The position numbers and the translations under genes were made by a program. A stretch of 51,029 nt of DNA from positions 1 through 51,029 of the forward strand of contig JAOTYM010000015.1 in NCBI GenBank assembly GCA_029861845.1. The letters are read 5' to 3'. Shown here piece after piece: positions 32,415-38,195 of the stretch (position 1 is the first letter of the stretch; each line of letters starts with the position of its first letter). Origin of the DNA: Gammaproteobacteria bacterium (GTDB taxonomy: Bacteria > Pseudomonadota > Gammaproteobacteria > Acidiferrobacterales > SPGG2). The notes beneath the pieces are model-generated. The model was not told the origin of the DNA and made no database searches. It saw only the letters and a program-made list of their open reading frames with translations.

Positions 32415-33737
32415 ATGGTCGATCCCTATCCGCCCGAAAGGCCGCTGTTTGCAATCTCGATGGTGCTTTCAGCACTTTTTTGGATCGGCCTTGCCTTCCT
32501 CTTCAAGCTGGCGCCGGAAAATGAGCTGTTGGTGATCGGCGTAGATCAGCTTGCCGTCGGCGCGGCAATTCTGATTATTTTAGCTTACCTCGTCGCCCAC
32601 CTTCGCAAGGCCAGACGGGTGGCCTATTTGCGTGGGGAGGCGGTTGAAATCGGTACCAAGCAACACCCGGACCTATTCTCACGCCTCAAGTCCACATGCC
32701 GACGACTGGGGATCGAAGCTCGTCCGGCTGCCTATCTGTTTCAAAACCCGGAGATTACGGATTGTTTCAGTTTGCGGTTTCAGGGTGCCAGTTTTCTCGC
32801 CTTAAACGGCGAGGTCATCGGTGCACTGACCGATCGCCAGGGGGCCATCGACTTTGTAATGGGCCAGGAACTGGGACGCATCGACGACCGCCGGGCGCCA
32901 TGGGCCGCCTTTTTGTTGCCGGCTTCGGTGTTGCCATTGATCGGCGCCGCCTACGCGCGTGCCAAGATATACAGCTATGACCGCTACGGTATCGCCGCTT
33001 GCAAAACAAAGGTAGATGCCGCCTTTGCGCTTGCCGTCGGCGCTAGTGGGAGCCGCCGCTGGAAATCGTTCAACATCCCCCAGTTCGCGAGTCAAAGCAA
33101 TGATAACAGTGCTTTTTGGATGTCGCTTGACGAGCTGATCTCACCAACCCCTTGGCTTAGCAAGCGCATGGCCCATCTTAGGGCGATCGCCACCAATAGT
33201 GAGAGTTTTGTGCCACGTCGACACCCGCTTGCCTACCCGATTGCCGGCTTAGTACCCAACATCGGCACCCGCGCATGGGTGGGGCTCTTGCGCGTATTGG
33301 TACTGGCCTTATGGGTGGCGATGATCGTACACGCTGGCACCGCCGCTAACGATTGGCTGCTGCGACACGAAATCATCGACCGGATTGCGACTCGATTTCA
33401 GCCAACCCCAGGCCGGGTGACCAGCTCCAGTGCGGTAAGCGAAGTGGTAGAAACGCCAAAGCCGGAAGATGCCTACACGAGTTTGGACGCCGACCTAAAA
33501 CAACTTGGCGAGCTTGCGCTTGCACGCCAGGTTGCACAGGGAGATATCCCGTGTGAGATCGGCAACCCAGAGGCCATCAAGTTGCGTTATCGCTGGACGC
33601 GCTACGCCTTTAGTTGTGATGAGCCCGTGGTCTACACCATGATCGAACATGGTGAATTCGAACCTGGAAGGCTTGCATACATCCGCCAATACGATTGGAA
33701 GAGAAAACGGATCTTAGCGGGGCAATCCAAGCCTTGA
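32415..33737 (+). CDS. M48-like membrane protein with lost zinc site (pseudopeptidase)
   Basis: The 440-residue protein has two N-terminal membrane helices (residues 11-31 and 45-62), a cytoplasmic M48-type domain and another helix near 295-315. In active relatives the metal site reads HELGH plus an E in the RxxExxxDR helix. Here the same place reads FVMGQELGRIDD (His to Gln151 and His to Arg155) and RAKIYSYDRYG (Glu to Ile185), so all three zinc ligands appear lost while the surrounding fold (LLPASVLPLIGAAYARAK) is kept. A C-terminal 120-residue region with CEIGNPEAIKLRYRWTRYAFSC is unassigned. It is probably a non-catalytic membrane protein. It stands alone, divergent from mtgA. Confidence 0.75.
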   Translation: MVDPYPPERPLFAISMVLSALFWIGLAFLFKLAPENELLVIGVDQLAVGAAILIILAYLVAHLRKARRVAYLRGEAVEIGTKQHPDLFSRLKSTCRRLGIEARPAAYLFQNPEITDCFSLRFQGASFLALNGEVIGALTDRQGAIDFVMGQELGRIDDRRAPWAAFLLPASVLPLIGAAYARAKIYSYDRYGIAACKTKVDAAFALAVGASGSRRWKSFNIPQFASQSNDNSAFWMSLDELISPTPWLSKRMAHLRAIATNSESFVPRRHPLAYPIAGLVPNIGTRAWVGLLRVLVLALWVAMIVHAGTAANDWLLRHEIIDRIATRFQPTPGRVTSSSAVSEVVETPKPEDAYTSLDADLKQLGELALARQVAQGDIPCEIGNPEAIKLRYRWTRYAFSCDEPVVYTMIEHGEFEPGRLAYIRQYDWKRKRILAGQSKP

Positions 33738-34123: not shown

Positions 34124-35185
34124 ATGGATGCAAGTGACGGTTTGAATGAACCGCGAAAAGCGATCGCTCTGATTTCGGGAGGCCTGGATTCGATGCTGGC
34201 GGCCCGATTAATTGCTGATCAGGGCATACACGTCGAGGGTATTAACTTCTATACCGGCTTTTGCGTCGAGGGGCACACCCACGCAATTCGTAATCAGCAC
34301 CGAGCAAAACCCAAACGCAACAACGCCCTTTGGGTGGCCGAGCGGCTCAACATAAAGCTCCACATTATCGACGTCATCGAGCAGTACAAGGACGTCGTCA
34401 TAAACCCCAAGCACGGGTATGGCGCGAACATGAACCCATGTCTCGGCTGTAAATCATTTATGGTCGGCAAGGCGCGGCAGTGGATGGAGCAGAACGGATT
34501 CGACTTCATTATCACTGGTGAAGTTATAGGTCAGCGGCCGAAGTCGCAGCGGCGCGATACTATGCCAGTGGTGGCACGCGAATCGGGCGCCTTCGATCGT
34601 TTATTGCGTCCATTATGCGCGAGGTTACTGCCGCCGACATTACCCGAACGAGAAGGTTGGGTAAACCGCGAAAAACTGTTGCGTATGAACGGTCGCTCGC
34701 GCAAGCCACAAATGGCACTGGCCAAGCAGTTCGGTTTTAGGGATTATGCACAACCGGCAGGCGGTTGCTGCTTTCTTACCGATAAACGCTACTCACACAA
34801 ACTTGCCGACCTATGGCAATCACGCGGCGAGAAACGCTACGACCTTGACGACATTATGCTGTTAAAGGTAGGCCGCCACTTACGCCCGCGAGCTAATTTC
34901 AAACTTATTGTCGGTCGCGACGATGGCGAGAATAACTTTCTCCACGGTTACCGACGACAGTATGTTCACATGTTCCCCACCAGTCACAAGGGCCCTTTAG
35001 TTTTGGTGAATGGCACGGCTGACGCTAGTGATCTGCAACTAGCAGCGCGGCTTACCGCGCGCTTCAGCCAAGGGAAAGAGGACGAAGAAGTGACCGTGGC
35101 CGTATGCAATACAGAAGGTGGCCAGCAACTAGTCGCGGTTAGACCGATGTCGCCGGCGGAGATCCCCGGCGATTGGTATCTATGA
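34124..35185 (+). CDS. PP-loop tRNA thiolase-like protein with NFACT-R-like C-terminal domain
   Basis: The 353-residue protein has the ATP-pyrophosphatase loop SGGLDS (residues 18-23). NPCLGCKSFM (Cys106, Cys109) and AGGCCFLTD (Cys215, Cys216) are candidate sulfur-carrying cysteines. IITGEVIGQRPKSQ and LLPPTLPEREGWV are signatures of a MnmA/ThiI-related family known mostly from anaerobes. The last third (FKLIVGRDDGENNFL) resembles the NFACT-R RNA-binding domain. Together they suggest ATP-dependent activation and sulfur insertion into a tRNA base. A TusA-type sulfur carrier overlaps its stop by four bases, which supports this. Which base is modified is unknown, and the canonical mnmA is not in this window. 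Confidence 0.75.
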   Translation: MDASDGLNEPRKAIALISGGLDSMLAARLIADQGIHVEGINFYTGFCVEGHTHAIRNQHRAKPKRNNALWVAERLNIKLHIIDVIEQYKDVVINPKHGYGANMNPCLGCKSFMVGKARQWMEQNGFDFIITGEVIGQRPKSQRRDTMPVVARESGAFDRLLRPLCARLLPPTLPEREGWVNREKLLRMNGRSRKPQMALAKQFGFRDYAQPAGGCCFLTDKRYSHKLADLWQSRGEKRYDLDDIMLLKVGRHLRPRANFKLIVGRDDGENNFLHGYRRQYVHMFPTSHKGPLVLVNGTADASDLQLAARLTARFSQGKEDEEVTVAVCNTEGGQQLVAVRPMSPAEIPGDWYL

Positions 35186-35406
35186 GCCGACACGAGCTCG
35201 ACGCCCGCAGGCTGCTATGCCCGCTGCCGGTAATACGGGTTCAAGAAAAGGTGAAGACGCTCGAGCGCGGCGACACGCTGGACGTGCTATGTAGTGATCC
35301 CGGGGCGCTGAACGATATTCCGGCCTGGTGCCGCATCAATGGGCACAAGCTCATCGATACCCGCAGCGAGGGGCACCATATCACCATTACCATTGAGGTC
35401 GGCTAG
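35182..35406 (+). CDS. TusA/SirA-like sulfur-carrier protein
   Basis: The 74-residue protein has the family signature LDARRLLCPLPVIRVQEKV, with Cys13 as persulfide carrier, and the two-layer alpha/beta fold ends with HHITITIEVG. These proteins accept sulfur from a desulfurase or rhodanese and hand it on. The ATG overlaps the stop of the PP-loop gene (ATGA), so sulfur relay to that protein is the likely role. Equally it could act in general sulfur trafficking. Confidence 0.88.
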   Translation: MSRHELDARRLLCPLPVIRVQEKVKTLERGDTLDVLCSDPGALNDIPAWCRINGHKLIDTRSEGHHITITIEVG

Positions 35407-35407
35407 C

Positions 35408-36595
35408 GTGGCCACTAATGCCGGCCGCGGGGACGCGCCCAGGCTATCACTGACATCGCCTCAGCCCGGAGAACGTGTGCGCGAGATTTATCGCGTGACG
35501 CTTGTCGGCGGCGCCATCGATCTCGCGCTCGGCGTTGCCAAGATTGTGTTCGGCGTAACCGCGCATTCTCAGGCGCTAATTGCCGACGGCGTGCACTCGC
35601 TGTCGGATCTCGCCACGGATGTGCTGGTCCTCTACGCGGCCAAACATGGCAGCCGCGAGGCCGACGAGGAGCATCCCTACGGCCACGGGCGCTTTGAGAC
35701 ACTAGCTACCGTCGGCCTTGGCGTTGCCTTGATCGCCACGGCGATCGGCATTTCCGTTGATGCGACGCGGCGCTTGTTTAACCCCGAATTACTGCTAACG
35801 CCAGGCGTATGGGCACTGGTGATTGCCGCTCTCTCGATCGTGCTGAAGGAGGCTATCTACCACTACACGATGCGGGCCGCCAGGCGCTATCGCTCCAACA
35901 TGCTGCGTGCCAATGCCTGGCATAGCCGCACCGACGCCTTGTCCTCGGTGATCGTGGTCGTCGGTATCACCGGCACTATGGCCGGTCTTTCCTACCTCGA
36001 CGCGATCGCGGCGATCGGCGTTGCCTTGATGATCGCCAAAATCGGTTGGGAATTTGGTTGGCAGAGCGTGCGCGAACTTGTCGACACCGCGCTTGACCCC
36101 GACCGCGTGGATGCAATCCGACAAACAATTGAGGCGGTTGATGGCGTTGAGGCCCTGCACTCGTTGCGTAGTCGACGCATGGGCGGTGATGCGCTGGTGG
36201 ATGTGCATATTCAGGTGGACCCGACGTTGAGCCTGTCGGAAGGACACCAAATCAGTGAGACGGTGCGCGCACAGTTGATCGATGACATCGAAGAGGTCAG
36301 CGACGTTATGGTGCACATCGACCCCGAGGATGATGAAATGGCAACCTCGACCGGCGCGCTGCCACTGCGTGAAGTCGTGCAGAAACGTCTGGACCACTAT
36401 TTTCGCGATATCGAAGCGGCGCAGCACATTGAAAAGGTGACGCTACATTACCTAGACGGCCATATACGCGTCGAGTTGTTACTGCCATTGGCGGTGCTGC
36501 CGAATAAAGCCGCGGTGATGGCGTTACGGCGGCGCTTCAACGAGGCGGTGGCATCGGATAGCCAAATAAGTACGGTCGAATTACGCTTTTACTAA
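35408..36595 (+). CDS. Cation diffusion facilitator family transporter
   Basis: The 395-residue protein has six membrane helices with the CDF metal sites ADGVHSLSDLATD and NAWHSRTDALSS (His-x-x-x-Asp in helices 2 and 5). A cytoplasmic ferredoxin-like domain (VDGVEALHSLRSRRMGG...VDVHIQVDP) follows, plus a second C-terminal stretch of about 90 residues that looks like another such domain and is longer than in simple FieF types. It exports divalent metal such as Zn, Fe or Mn in exchange for protons. GTG 35408 begins one base after the TusA stop, with GAGG about 10 bases upstream. Coupling of a metal exporter to a thiolation pair is unusual. Confidence 0.88.
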   Translation: MATNAGRGDAPRLSLTSPQPGERVREIYRVTLVGGAIDLALGVAKIVFGVTAHSQALIADGVHSLSDLATDVLVLYAAKHGSREADEEHPYGHGRFETLATVGLGVALIATAIGISVDATRRLFNPELLLTPGVWALVIAALSIVLKEAIYHYTMRAARRYRSNMLRANAWHSRTDALSSVIVVVGITGTMAGLSYLDAIAAIGVALMIAKIGWEFGWQSVRELVDTALDPDRVDAIRQTIEAVDGVEALHSLRSRRMGGDALVDVHIQVDPTLSLSEGHQISETVRAQLIDDIEEVSDVMVHIDPEDDEMATSTGALPLREVVQKRLDHYFRDIEAAQHIEKVTLHYLDGHIRVELLLPLAVLPNKAAVMALRRRFNEAVASDSQISTVELRFY

Positions 36596-36723: not shown

Positions 36724-36785
36724 ATAGCTATGCATCTTGGCGCTGCATGAGCAGCGTCCCCAACCAACTCCCGGAGGATTTACAG

Positions 36786-38195
36786 ATGGCTGCGGCTGAT
36801 GTTTTTAAGATGATGAAGGACAACAACGTAAAGTTCGTCGACCTACGTTTTACCGATACCAAAGGTAAGGAACAGCATGTATCGGTACCGGCCCATGTAG
36901 TCGATGACAGCATGATGGAAAACGGCAAAATGTTTGACGGCTCCAGCATCGCCGGTTGGAAGGGAATTAACGAATCCGACATGGTTCTCATGCCCGAACC
37001 CGAAAGCGCGGTGATGGACCCGTTCATGGAAGAACCGACCCTATTACTTCGCTGCGACATTCTCGAACCGACGACCATGCAGGGTTACGGGCGTGATCCG
37101 CGAACCATCGCCAAACGGGCCGAGGCCTACCTAAAGAGCACCGGCGTCGCGGATACGGCGTACTTTGGGCCCGAGCCAGAGTTCTTTGTGTTTGATGATG
37201 TGCGCTGGGGCGCCGACATGAGCGGTAGTTTCTTCAAGATCGATTCAGAGGAAGCGGAATGGAATTCGGAAAAGGCCTACGAAGGCGGCAATCTGGGTCA
37301 CCGCCCATCCGTCAAGGGCGGCTATTTCCCGGTACCACCGGTGGACTCGCTGCAAGATATCCGTTCCGCCATGGCGCTCGCAATGACCGAGATGGGACTA
37401 ACCATCGAAGCCCATCATCACGAGGTGGCGACCGCAGGCCAGAACGAGATCGGCACCCGATTTGCGAGCCTCGTACGTAAAGCAGATGAATTGCAAATTC
37501 TGAAGTATTGTGTGCACAACGTAGCCCACGCCTATGGTAAGACCGCGACCTTCATGCCGAAACCGCTGGTCGGCGATAACGGCAATGGCATGCATGTGCA
37601 CCAATCCTTATCGAAGGGTGGCGAGAATGTGTTTGCTGGCGATGAATATGGCGGCTTGAGCCAGATTGCGCTCTATTATATCGGTGGTATCTTCAAACAC
37701 GCGCGCGCCCTAAACGCGCTTACCAACGCAACCACCAATAGCTACAAGCGGTTAGTCCCAGGCTTCGAAGCACCGGTGTTGTTGGCGTACTCGGCCCGTA
37801 ATCGGTCAGCCGCGGTGCGAGTGCCCCATGTGCCGAACCCAAAAGGCACGCGCGTGGAGATCCGTTTTCCTGATTCGGCCGGCAATCCCTATTTCTCCTT
37901 TGCCGCTATGATGATGGCTGGTCTAGATGGAATCGAGAACAAAATCCTGCCCGGCGGTCCGCTCGACAAGGACCTGTACGACCTGCCGCCAGAAGAAGAG
38001 GCGAAGGTCGCGACCGTGTGCCATTCGCTCGACGGCGCCGTGGACGCACTCGATGCCGATCGCGACTTCCTCAAGGCCGGCGGCGTATTTAGTGACGACG
38101 CCATCGATGCCTATATCAGCTTGAAGATAGAGGAGATCACGCGGGTGCGCATGACGACCCATCCGGTCGAATTCGATATGTACTACAGCCTTTAG
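36786..38195 (+). CDS. glnA: Glutamine synthetase, type I
   Basis: The 469-residue enzyme makes glutamine from glutamate, ammonia and ATP as a dodecamer. Signatures: [47 protein letters not shown] and the adenylylation loop [11 protein letters not shown] with Tyr near 397, so it is probably of the GlnE-regulated type. ATG 36786 is preferred: GGAGGA lies 8 bases upstream and the length equals that of other GlnA; an in-frame start 13 codons earlier would include the ribosome site in coding sequence. Transcription is under NtrC and sigma-54, and ntrBC follows. Confidence 0.97.

Follow-up and report, generated by a model that had tools for sequence, protein, structure and literature searches.

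A PP-loop/NFACT-R protein with its own TusA sulfur carrier as a predicted tRNA 4-thiouridine synthase of bacteria without ThiI

Few sulfur modifications of bacterial tRNA are as abundant as 4-thiouridine at position 8 (s4U8), which also acts as a near-UV sensor. In Escherichia coli, ThiI serves both thiamine synthesis and tRNA thiolation. A pathway for tRNA 4-thiouridylation built on NFACT-R and TusA was reportedly predicted by Burroughs and Aravind in 2014. A literature search, from which subscription papers were mostly absent, returned no paper on NFACT-R with thiolation and no test of the predicted pathway. The earlier note on the operon described here had called it uncharacterised; this held for experiment, within the literature searched, and not for the prediction, which reportedly dates from 2014. 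Removal of the modification is better described: in the accessible part of a report on RudS (TudS-DUF1722), that enzyme takes s4U off tRNA, ThiI is reported in 94% of species with DUF1722, and for the RudS-bearing groups without ThiI the source of s4U, if any, is left unexplained (PMC11417400).

The window (the whole stretch of DNA analysed, 51,029 nucleotides of contig JAOTYM010000015.1) contained a three-gene operon on one strand, in which a PP-loop/NFACT-R enzyme was followed by a TusA protein and a cation diffusion facilitator (CDF) exporter. The enzyme and TusA genes shared an ATGA overlap and the TusA and CDF genes were spaced by one base, both as the earlier note had described them and as confirmed by coordinates. 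The features were as follows.

34124-35185, + strand: fusion of PP-loop ATPase and NFACT-R_2, 353 aa, probable ThiI-independent tRNA 4-thiouridine synthase (from Pfam and NCBIfam matches, the structural model and exclusion with ThiI)
34175-34192, + strand: PP-loop motif SGGLDS, residues 18-23, conserved among homologues
34262-34264, + strand: Cys47, accessory conserved cysteine (242/245 sequences)
34439-34450, + strand: C106-x-x-C109, at the MnmA D99/C102 position (245/245; aligned to MnmA NPDxxC / NPCxxC)
34766-34771, + strand: Cys215-Cys216, with C216 aligned to the catalytic C199 of MnmA (C216 in 245/245, C215 in 242/245)
34871-35179, + strand: NFACT-R_2 putative RNA-binding domain, residues 250-352 (PF18297, 3.6e-33)
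35182-35406, + strand: TusA-family sulfur carrier with LCPxPVI motif, 74 aa from the ATG of the ATGA overlap (PF01206, 9.7e-22)
35408-36595, + strand: CDF cation exporter with two HxxxD sites, GTG start, 395 aa (TIGR01297, 3.2e-73)
36747-38195, + strand: glnA, given for context (open reading frame as listed; the true start may lie further in)

Upstream, at 32415-33737 (+), the window held a 440-aa open reading frame with no Pfam match and no relatives among the 136 neighbourhoods compared.

The enzyme was compared with profile models and with known folds. Its C-terminal end scored 114.3 bits with NFACT-R_2 (PF18297) against a gathering cut-off of 26.9. The N-terminal part matched the Pfam families tRNA_Me_trans (47.9 bits) and ThiI (37.0 bits), and the SGGxDS loop within the right fold places it among the PP-loop ATP pyrophosphatases. 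SGGLDS was kept at the five positions counted in 224-225 of 225 homologues and in 20/20 sequences of another class. The ThiI model TIGR00342 gave 37.3 bits, far below its cut-off of 264.5. No THUMP domain and no NFACT-N domain was matched by a Pfam scan of the 353-aa protein, so that the enzyme differs from ThiI in carrying NFACT-R rather than THUMP, together with its own TusA and the CxxC and CC cysteines, and from RqcH/NEMF, whose NFACT-R fold it shares, in the lack of an NFACT-N match. An AlphaFold2 model made from 53 homologues had a pLDDT of 91 and a pTM of 0.87. With VIA-align, the PP domain was superposed on ThiI (4kr6_A) at Z 14.9, rmsd 2.7, 169 aligned residues and 23% identity; YcfA tied with ThiI, and LarE and MnmA were close after. 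The C-terminus was superposed on the NFACT-R domain of RqcH (8s1u_H) at Z 14.6 and rmsd 2.1 over 101 aligned residues. When the whole chain was searched with Foldseek, MnmA, the s2U enzyme, came out on top, a match with a poor full-length rmsd that serves for ranking only. An MnmA/ThiI-type PP-loop active site, two candidate cysteine pairs (C106xxC109 and C215-C216, both conserved) and an NFACT-R-like RNA-binding end had all been proposed in the earlier note; the profile search for domain boundaries and the alignments agree with each.

C106, C109 and C216 were present in 245/245 sequences, and the alignment places them at D99, C102 and C199 of MnmA (numbering from PMC11784392). In the accessible part of that paper these E. 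coli residues are put forward as ligands of a [4Fe-4S] cluster that is itself under dispute; Thermus MnmA, of the CxxC-C type, binds [4Fe-4S], according to the part of its report available (PMC8584467). The enzyme resembles the CxxC-C type of MnmA in its active-site cysteine positions and has all three cysteines at the ligand positions of such [4Fe-4S] sulfurtransferases, which makes it a candidate for cluster binding. C47 and C215 were each found in 242/245 sequences, the same three (L113, L115 and L116) having neither; these three also had no TusA neighbour. This is only a hint of a tie between the two cysteines and TusA, because other loci without a TusA neighbour retain both.

A second or alternative s2U34 enzyme of the MnmA type would have the closest NCBIfam model (TIGR00420, 48 bits) and the top of the Foldseek ranking in its favour. 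The 48 bits are far under the MnmA cut-off of 236.95, however, and a separate, true MnmA scored above that cut-off in 51/51 genomes tested, 31 of which carried the enzyme, including the window's own (G000:C159). Replacement of MnmA is ruled out by this coexistence, and we regard s2U34 synthesis by the enzyme as highly improbable.

The two partner proteins were assigned to families in the same way. TusA scored 77.0 bits with PF01206 against a cut-off of 28.6 and carried the CPxP active-site motif, and thus belongs to the TusA family; with the equivalog model PRK00299 it stayed below the cut-off (55.1 against 78 bits). The LCPxPVI motif was kept across 197 TusA neighbours. The exporter passed the CDF model TIGR01297 with 246.5 bits against 82.35. 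Like FieF and MamB/MamM it belongs to the CDF superfamily, with its best subfamily scores for MamB and MamM; unlike them it fell below every listed equivalog cut-off (MamB 199.4/350, MamM 186.7/350, FieF 144.4/420) and has a C-terminal extension with a conserved HYLxG. ADGxHSLSDL and ANAWHxRSDA were kept across 105 CDF neighbours. We take the HxxxD motifs within them (HSLSD and H-x-R-S-D) to be the metal sites of TM2 and TM5, and HxxxD/HxxxD sites presumably favour zinc.

Conservation of the operon was surveyed in the window's GTDB class, in one other order and in another class of the phylum. NFACT-R_2 was found in 119 of the 232 genomes of the class, about half, and 118 of the 119 class loci read held the full enzyme. 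The exception, L149 (genome G028), had no intact enzyme and was excluded from the 118, G028 itself still being counted within the 119. TusA followed the enzyme in 98/118 class loci, CDF then followed in 63/118, and glnA followed the operon in 76/118; some of the 20/118 loci without an adjacent TusA ended at contig ends. Among loci from public genomes, TusA was downstream in 72/80 and CDF in 45/80. Two cultured bacteria, Sedimenticola selenatireducens DSM 17993 (L177) and Methylobacter tundripaludum SV96 (L206), each carry the enzyme followed by TusA and CDF. In the other order, TusA lay downstream of the enzyme in 25/27 loci, four of them 2.2-4.5 kb off, and CDF was beside the enzyme in none of the 27 loci examined. 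In the other class, 20 of 30 loci were read, with TusA in 18/20, CDF in 6/20 and glnA in 0/20. Gene combinations were counted at loci with at least 3.5 kb of downstream sequence: the order PP-loop enzyme, TusA, CDF occurred without glnA in 8/61 named loci with enough flank and in 6/20 loci of the other class, and, where the flank was long enough, no class or named locus had CDF without TusA.

Because the same gene order on one strand recurs so widely, the operon is not a chance arrangement. A survey of how often TusA and CDF genes accompany the enzyme had been proposed in the earlier note, with their confinement to this one genome as the refuting case; that confinement is ruled out by recurrence in two classes. 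The idea that synteny with glnA alone keeps TusA and CDF in place is partly ruled out by the other class, in which both occur without glnA. From the neighbour counts across the class, the order and the other class, enzyme and TusA form the core and CDF is a companion.

Several further features of these neighbourhoods were recorded. In L149, at about 276000-286000 of contig 1 of a small genome, only a fragment of the enzyme, broken by a stop, is left and both TusA and CDF are kept, possibly an ongoing decay. Directly upstream of the enzyme, 30 class loci (e.g. L073:6064-6663, -) share a conserved gene for a protein about 200 aa long; it had no Pfam match, and none was found in the window. In many loci glnA is separated from ntrB by a gene for a DUF4124 protein (L128:8322-8915, +); none was seen in the window. 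One genome, G171, had two strong NFACT-R_2 matches, on contigs C93 and C182.

The CDF exporter is a common yet dispensable companion of the enzyme-TusA pair, with a probable role in metal homeostasis. It is not required for the core function, because it is absent from 27/27 loci of the order and from 55/118 class loci. That same absence speaks against the exporter being an integral part that guards a persulfide relay or a cluster centre from thiophilic metal, a reading that follows the earlier note and is compatible with s4U synthesis by the core; the recurrence of the three-gene order in two classes, with glnA or without it, the restriction of CDF to loci with TusA and the HxxxD/HxxxD sites lend it some colour, and on balance we consider it rather unlikely. 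Gene order is the sole tie here between CDF and thiolation chemistry.

Presence of the enzyme was then set against presence of ThiI. In three genome sets pooled, the enzyme was found in 176/525 genomes, full-length ThiI in 169/525, and both in none. In the class set the numbers were 119 and 17, with no overlap, of 232 (Fisher 2.5e-6), ThiI being called with TIGR00342 from 16 matches above the cut-off and one counted below it (G144, 246.5 bits), all others scoring at most 54.7 bits. In the order set, which was picked for its ThiI content, they were 28 and 129, again with no overlap, of 215 (3e-13). In the third set, 80 genomes from which later members of the phylum draw were left out and of which 2/80 belonged to the window's own class, ThiI was found in 0/30 genomes with the enzyme against 24/50 of the others (1.5e-6). 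With one genome per family, the enzyme occurred in 75, ThiI in 9 and both in 0 of 142 (8.6e-4); this figure is the fairest, since related genomes are not independent. Neither protein was found in 96/232 class genomes, which counts against s4U synthesis as the role of the enzyme in that s4U may be dispensable and the exclusion could partly reflect lineage.

Takeover of ThiI's thiamine role (thiazole sulfur) in place of tRNA thiolation would give an identical exclusion, and ThiI was first discovered through thiamine synthesis, as stated in the accessible part of PMC11417400. With an RNA-binding NFACT-R end, and with the link to the s4U-removing enzyme described below, this reading is very improbable.

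The enzyme also shares a chromosomal position with thiI in the order. Among the matches listed (150 glnA matches), thiI lay within 6 kb of glnA in 71/95 ThiI genomes, within 1 kb in 68, all divergent; among the same matches, the enzyme lay within 6 kb of glnA, on the same strand, in 19/20 enzyme genomes. The arrangement <typA, enzyme>, ..., glnA> was seen in 17/27 enzyme loci of the order, and <glnA, thiI>, typA> in the ThiI loci L155, L276, L277 and L278 (loci L274-L280 being 7 chosen from 129). The flank gene is putatively typA, judged by its sequence. The typA-glnA interval in the order thus carries either thiI or the enzyme-TusA pair. Within family f9 both kinds were found, in different genera (G006 and G406). 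In the class, 15/17 thiI loci were away from glnA, which counts against a shared slot outside the order.

DUF1722 was used as a marker of RudS, and most matches fell within reading frames at least about 300 aa long. In the class it was found in 57/119 enzyme genomes (50 after seven weak matches were dropped), in 8/17 ThiI genomes and in 0/96 genomes with neither; in the order the corresponding counts were 17/28, 122/129 and 3/58. With one genome per family the counts were 39/75 for the enzyme and 0/58 for neither. In genomes of at least 3 Mb they were 40/55 for the enzyme and 0/36 for neither; small genome size as the cause of DUF1722 absence where both enzymes are absent is thereby ruled out. 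Three observations count against the link. No DUF1722 match was found in 62/119 enzyme genomes, the sole match in the genome of the window itself is weak and partial at 38.3 bits, and DUF1722 occurred in the three order genomes with neither enzyme (G283, G333 and G384). A lenient search of these three found no enzyme, two weak matches resembling MnmA by length; since glnA was not among the matches listed for them, their glnA region may be unassembled. As a separate observation, the 96/232 class genomes without the enzyme, ThiI and DUF1722 may represent lineages with no s4U at all.

The same evidence bears on a further alternative, in which the target of thiolation is another position or base (e.g. 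s2C32, as for TtcA) or lies outside tRNA, and lineage accounts for the exclusion with ThiI. A PP-loop with a three-cysteine centre is common to s2U and s2C enzymes, and sequence cannot reveal the substrate position. The exclusion in three sets and in the one-per-family test, the typA-glnA interval and the DUF1722 link nevertheless point to s4U, and we hold the alternative to be improbable.

The gene pair very probably adds sulfur to tRNA. That the PP-loop/NFACT-R protein is a tRNA s4U8 synthase which replaces ThiI and is fed by its own TusA is a prediction we consider likely, because of the exclusion with ThiI, the shared typA-glnA slot, the DUF1722 link, the additional presence of MnmA and the ThiI and RqcH folds. 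The first three of these give good support to the earlier note's proposal, a module that thiolates RNA and brings its own sulfur carrier, and allow it to be narrowed to s4U synthesis. In the proposed mechanism, the NFACT-R domain would grip the tRNA in place of ThiI's THUMP, and the SGGLDS loop would use ATP to adenylate uridine C4. Sulfur from a cysteine desulfurase would be passed via the operon's own TusA, perhaps through C47/C215, and would reach the C106/C109/C216 centre either as a persulfide or, as in MnmA of the CxxC-C type, at a [4Fe-4S] cluster. In the last step the adenylate would be displaced by sulfur. The location of these three cysteines at the MnmA cluster-ligand positions favours adenylation of uridine C4, with TusA donating the sulfur and with a persulfide or cluster at the centre.

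More tentatively, the family may constitute a second class of s4U synthase, TusA-fed and [4Fe-4S]-dependent, that has traded places with ThiI, and has done so inside the typA-glnA interval in one order. This class would explain RudS bacteria without ThiI, with C47 and C215 as a relay from TusA and with the CDF exporter shielding the centre from wrong metals; as a whole the proposal is possible and somewhat doubtful.

What is new here is independent support for a predicted enzyme class, from displacement and exclusion of ThiI, a shared locus and the link with RudS. The enzyme shares with ThiI the PP-loop fold and the role in the genome, as well as the chromosomal interval in one order. The operon is a concrete, widespread and testable candidate for s4U synthesis in bacteria without ThiI.
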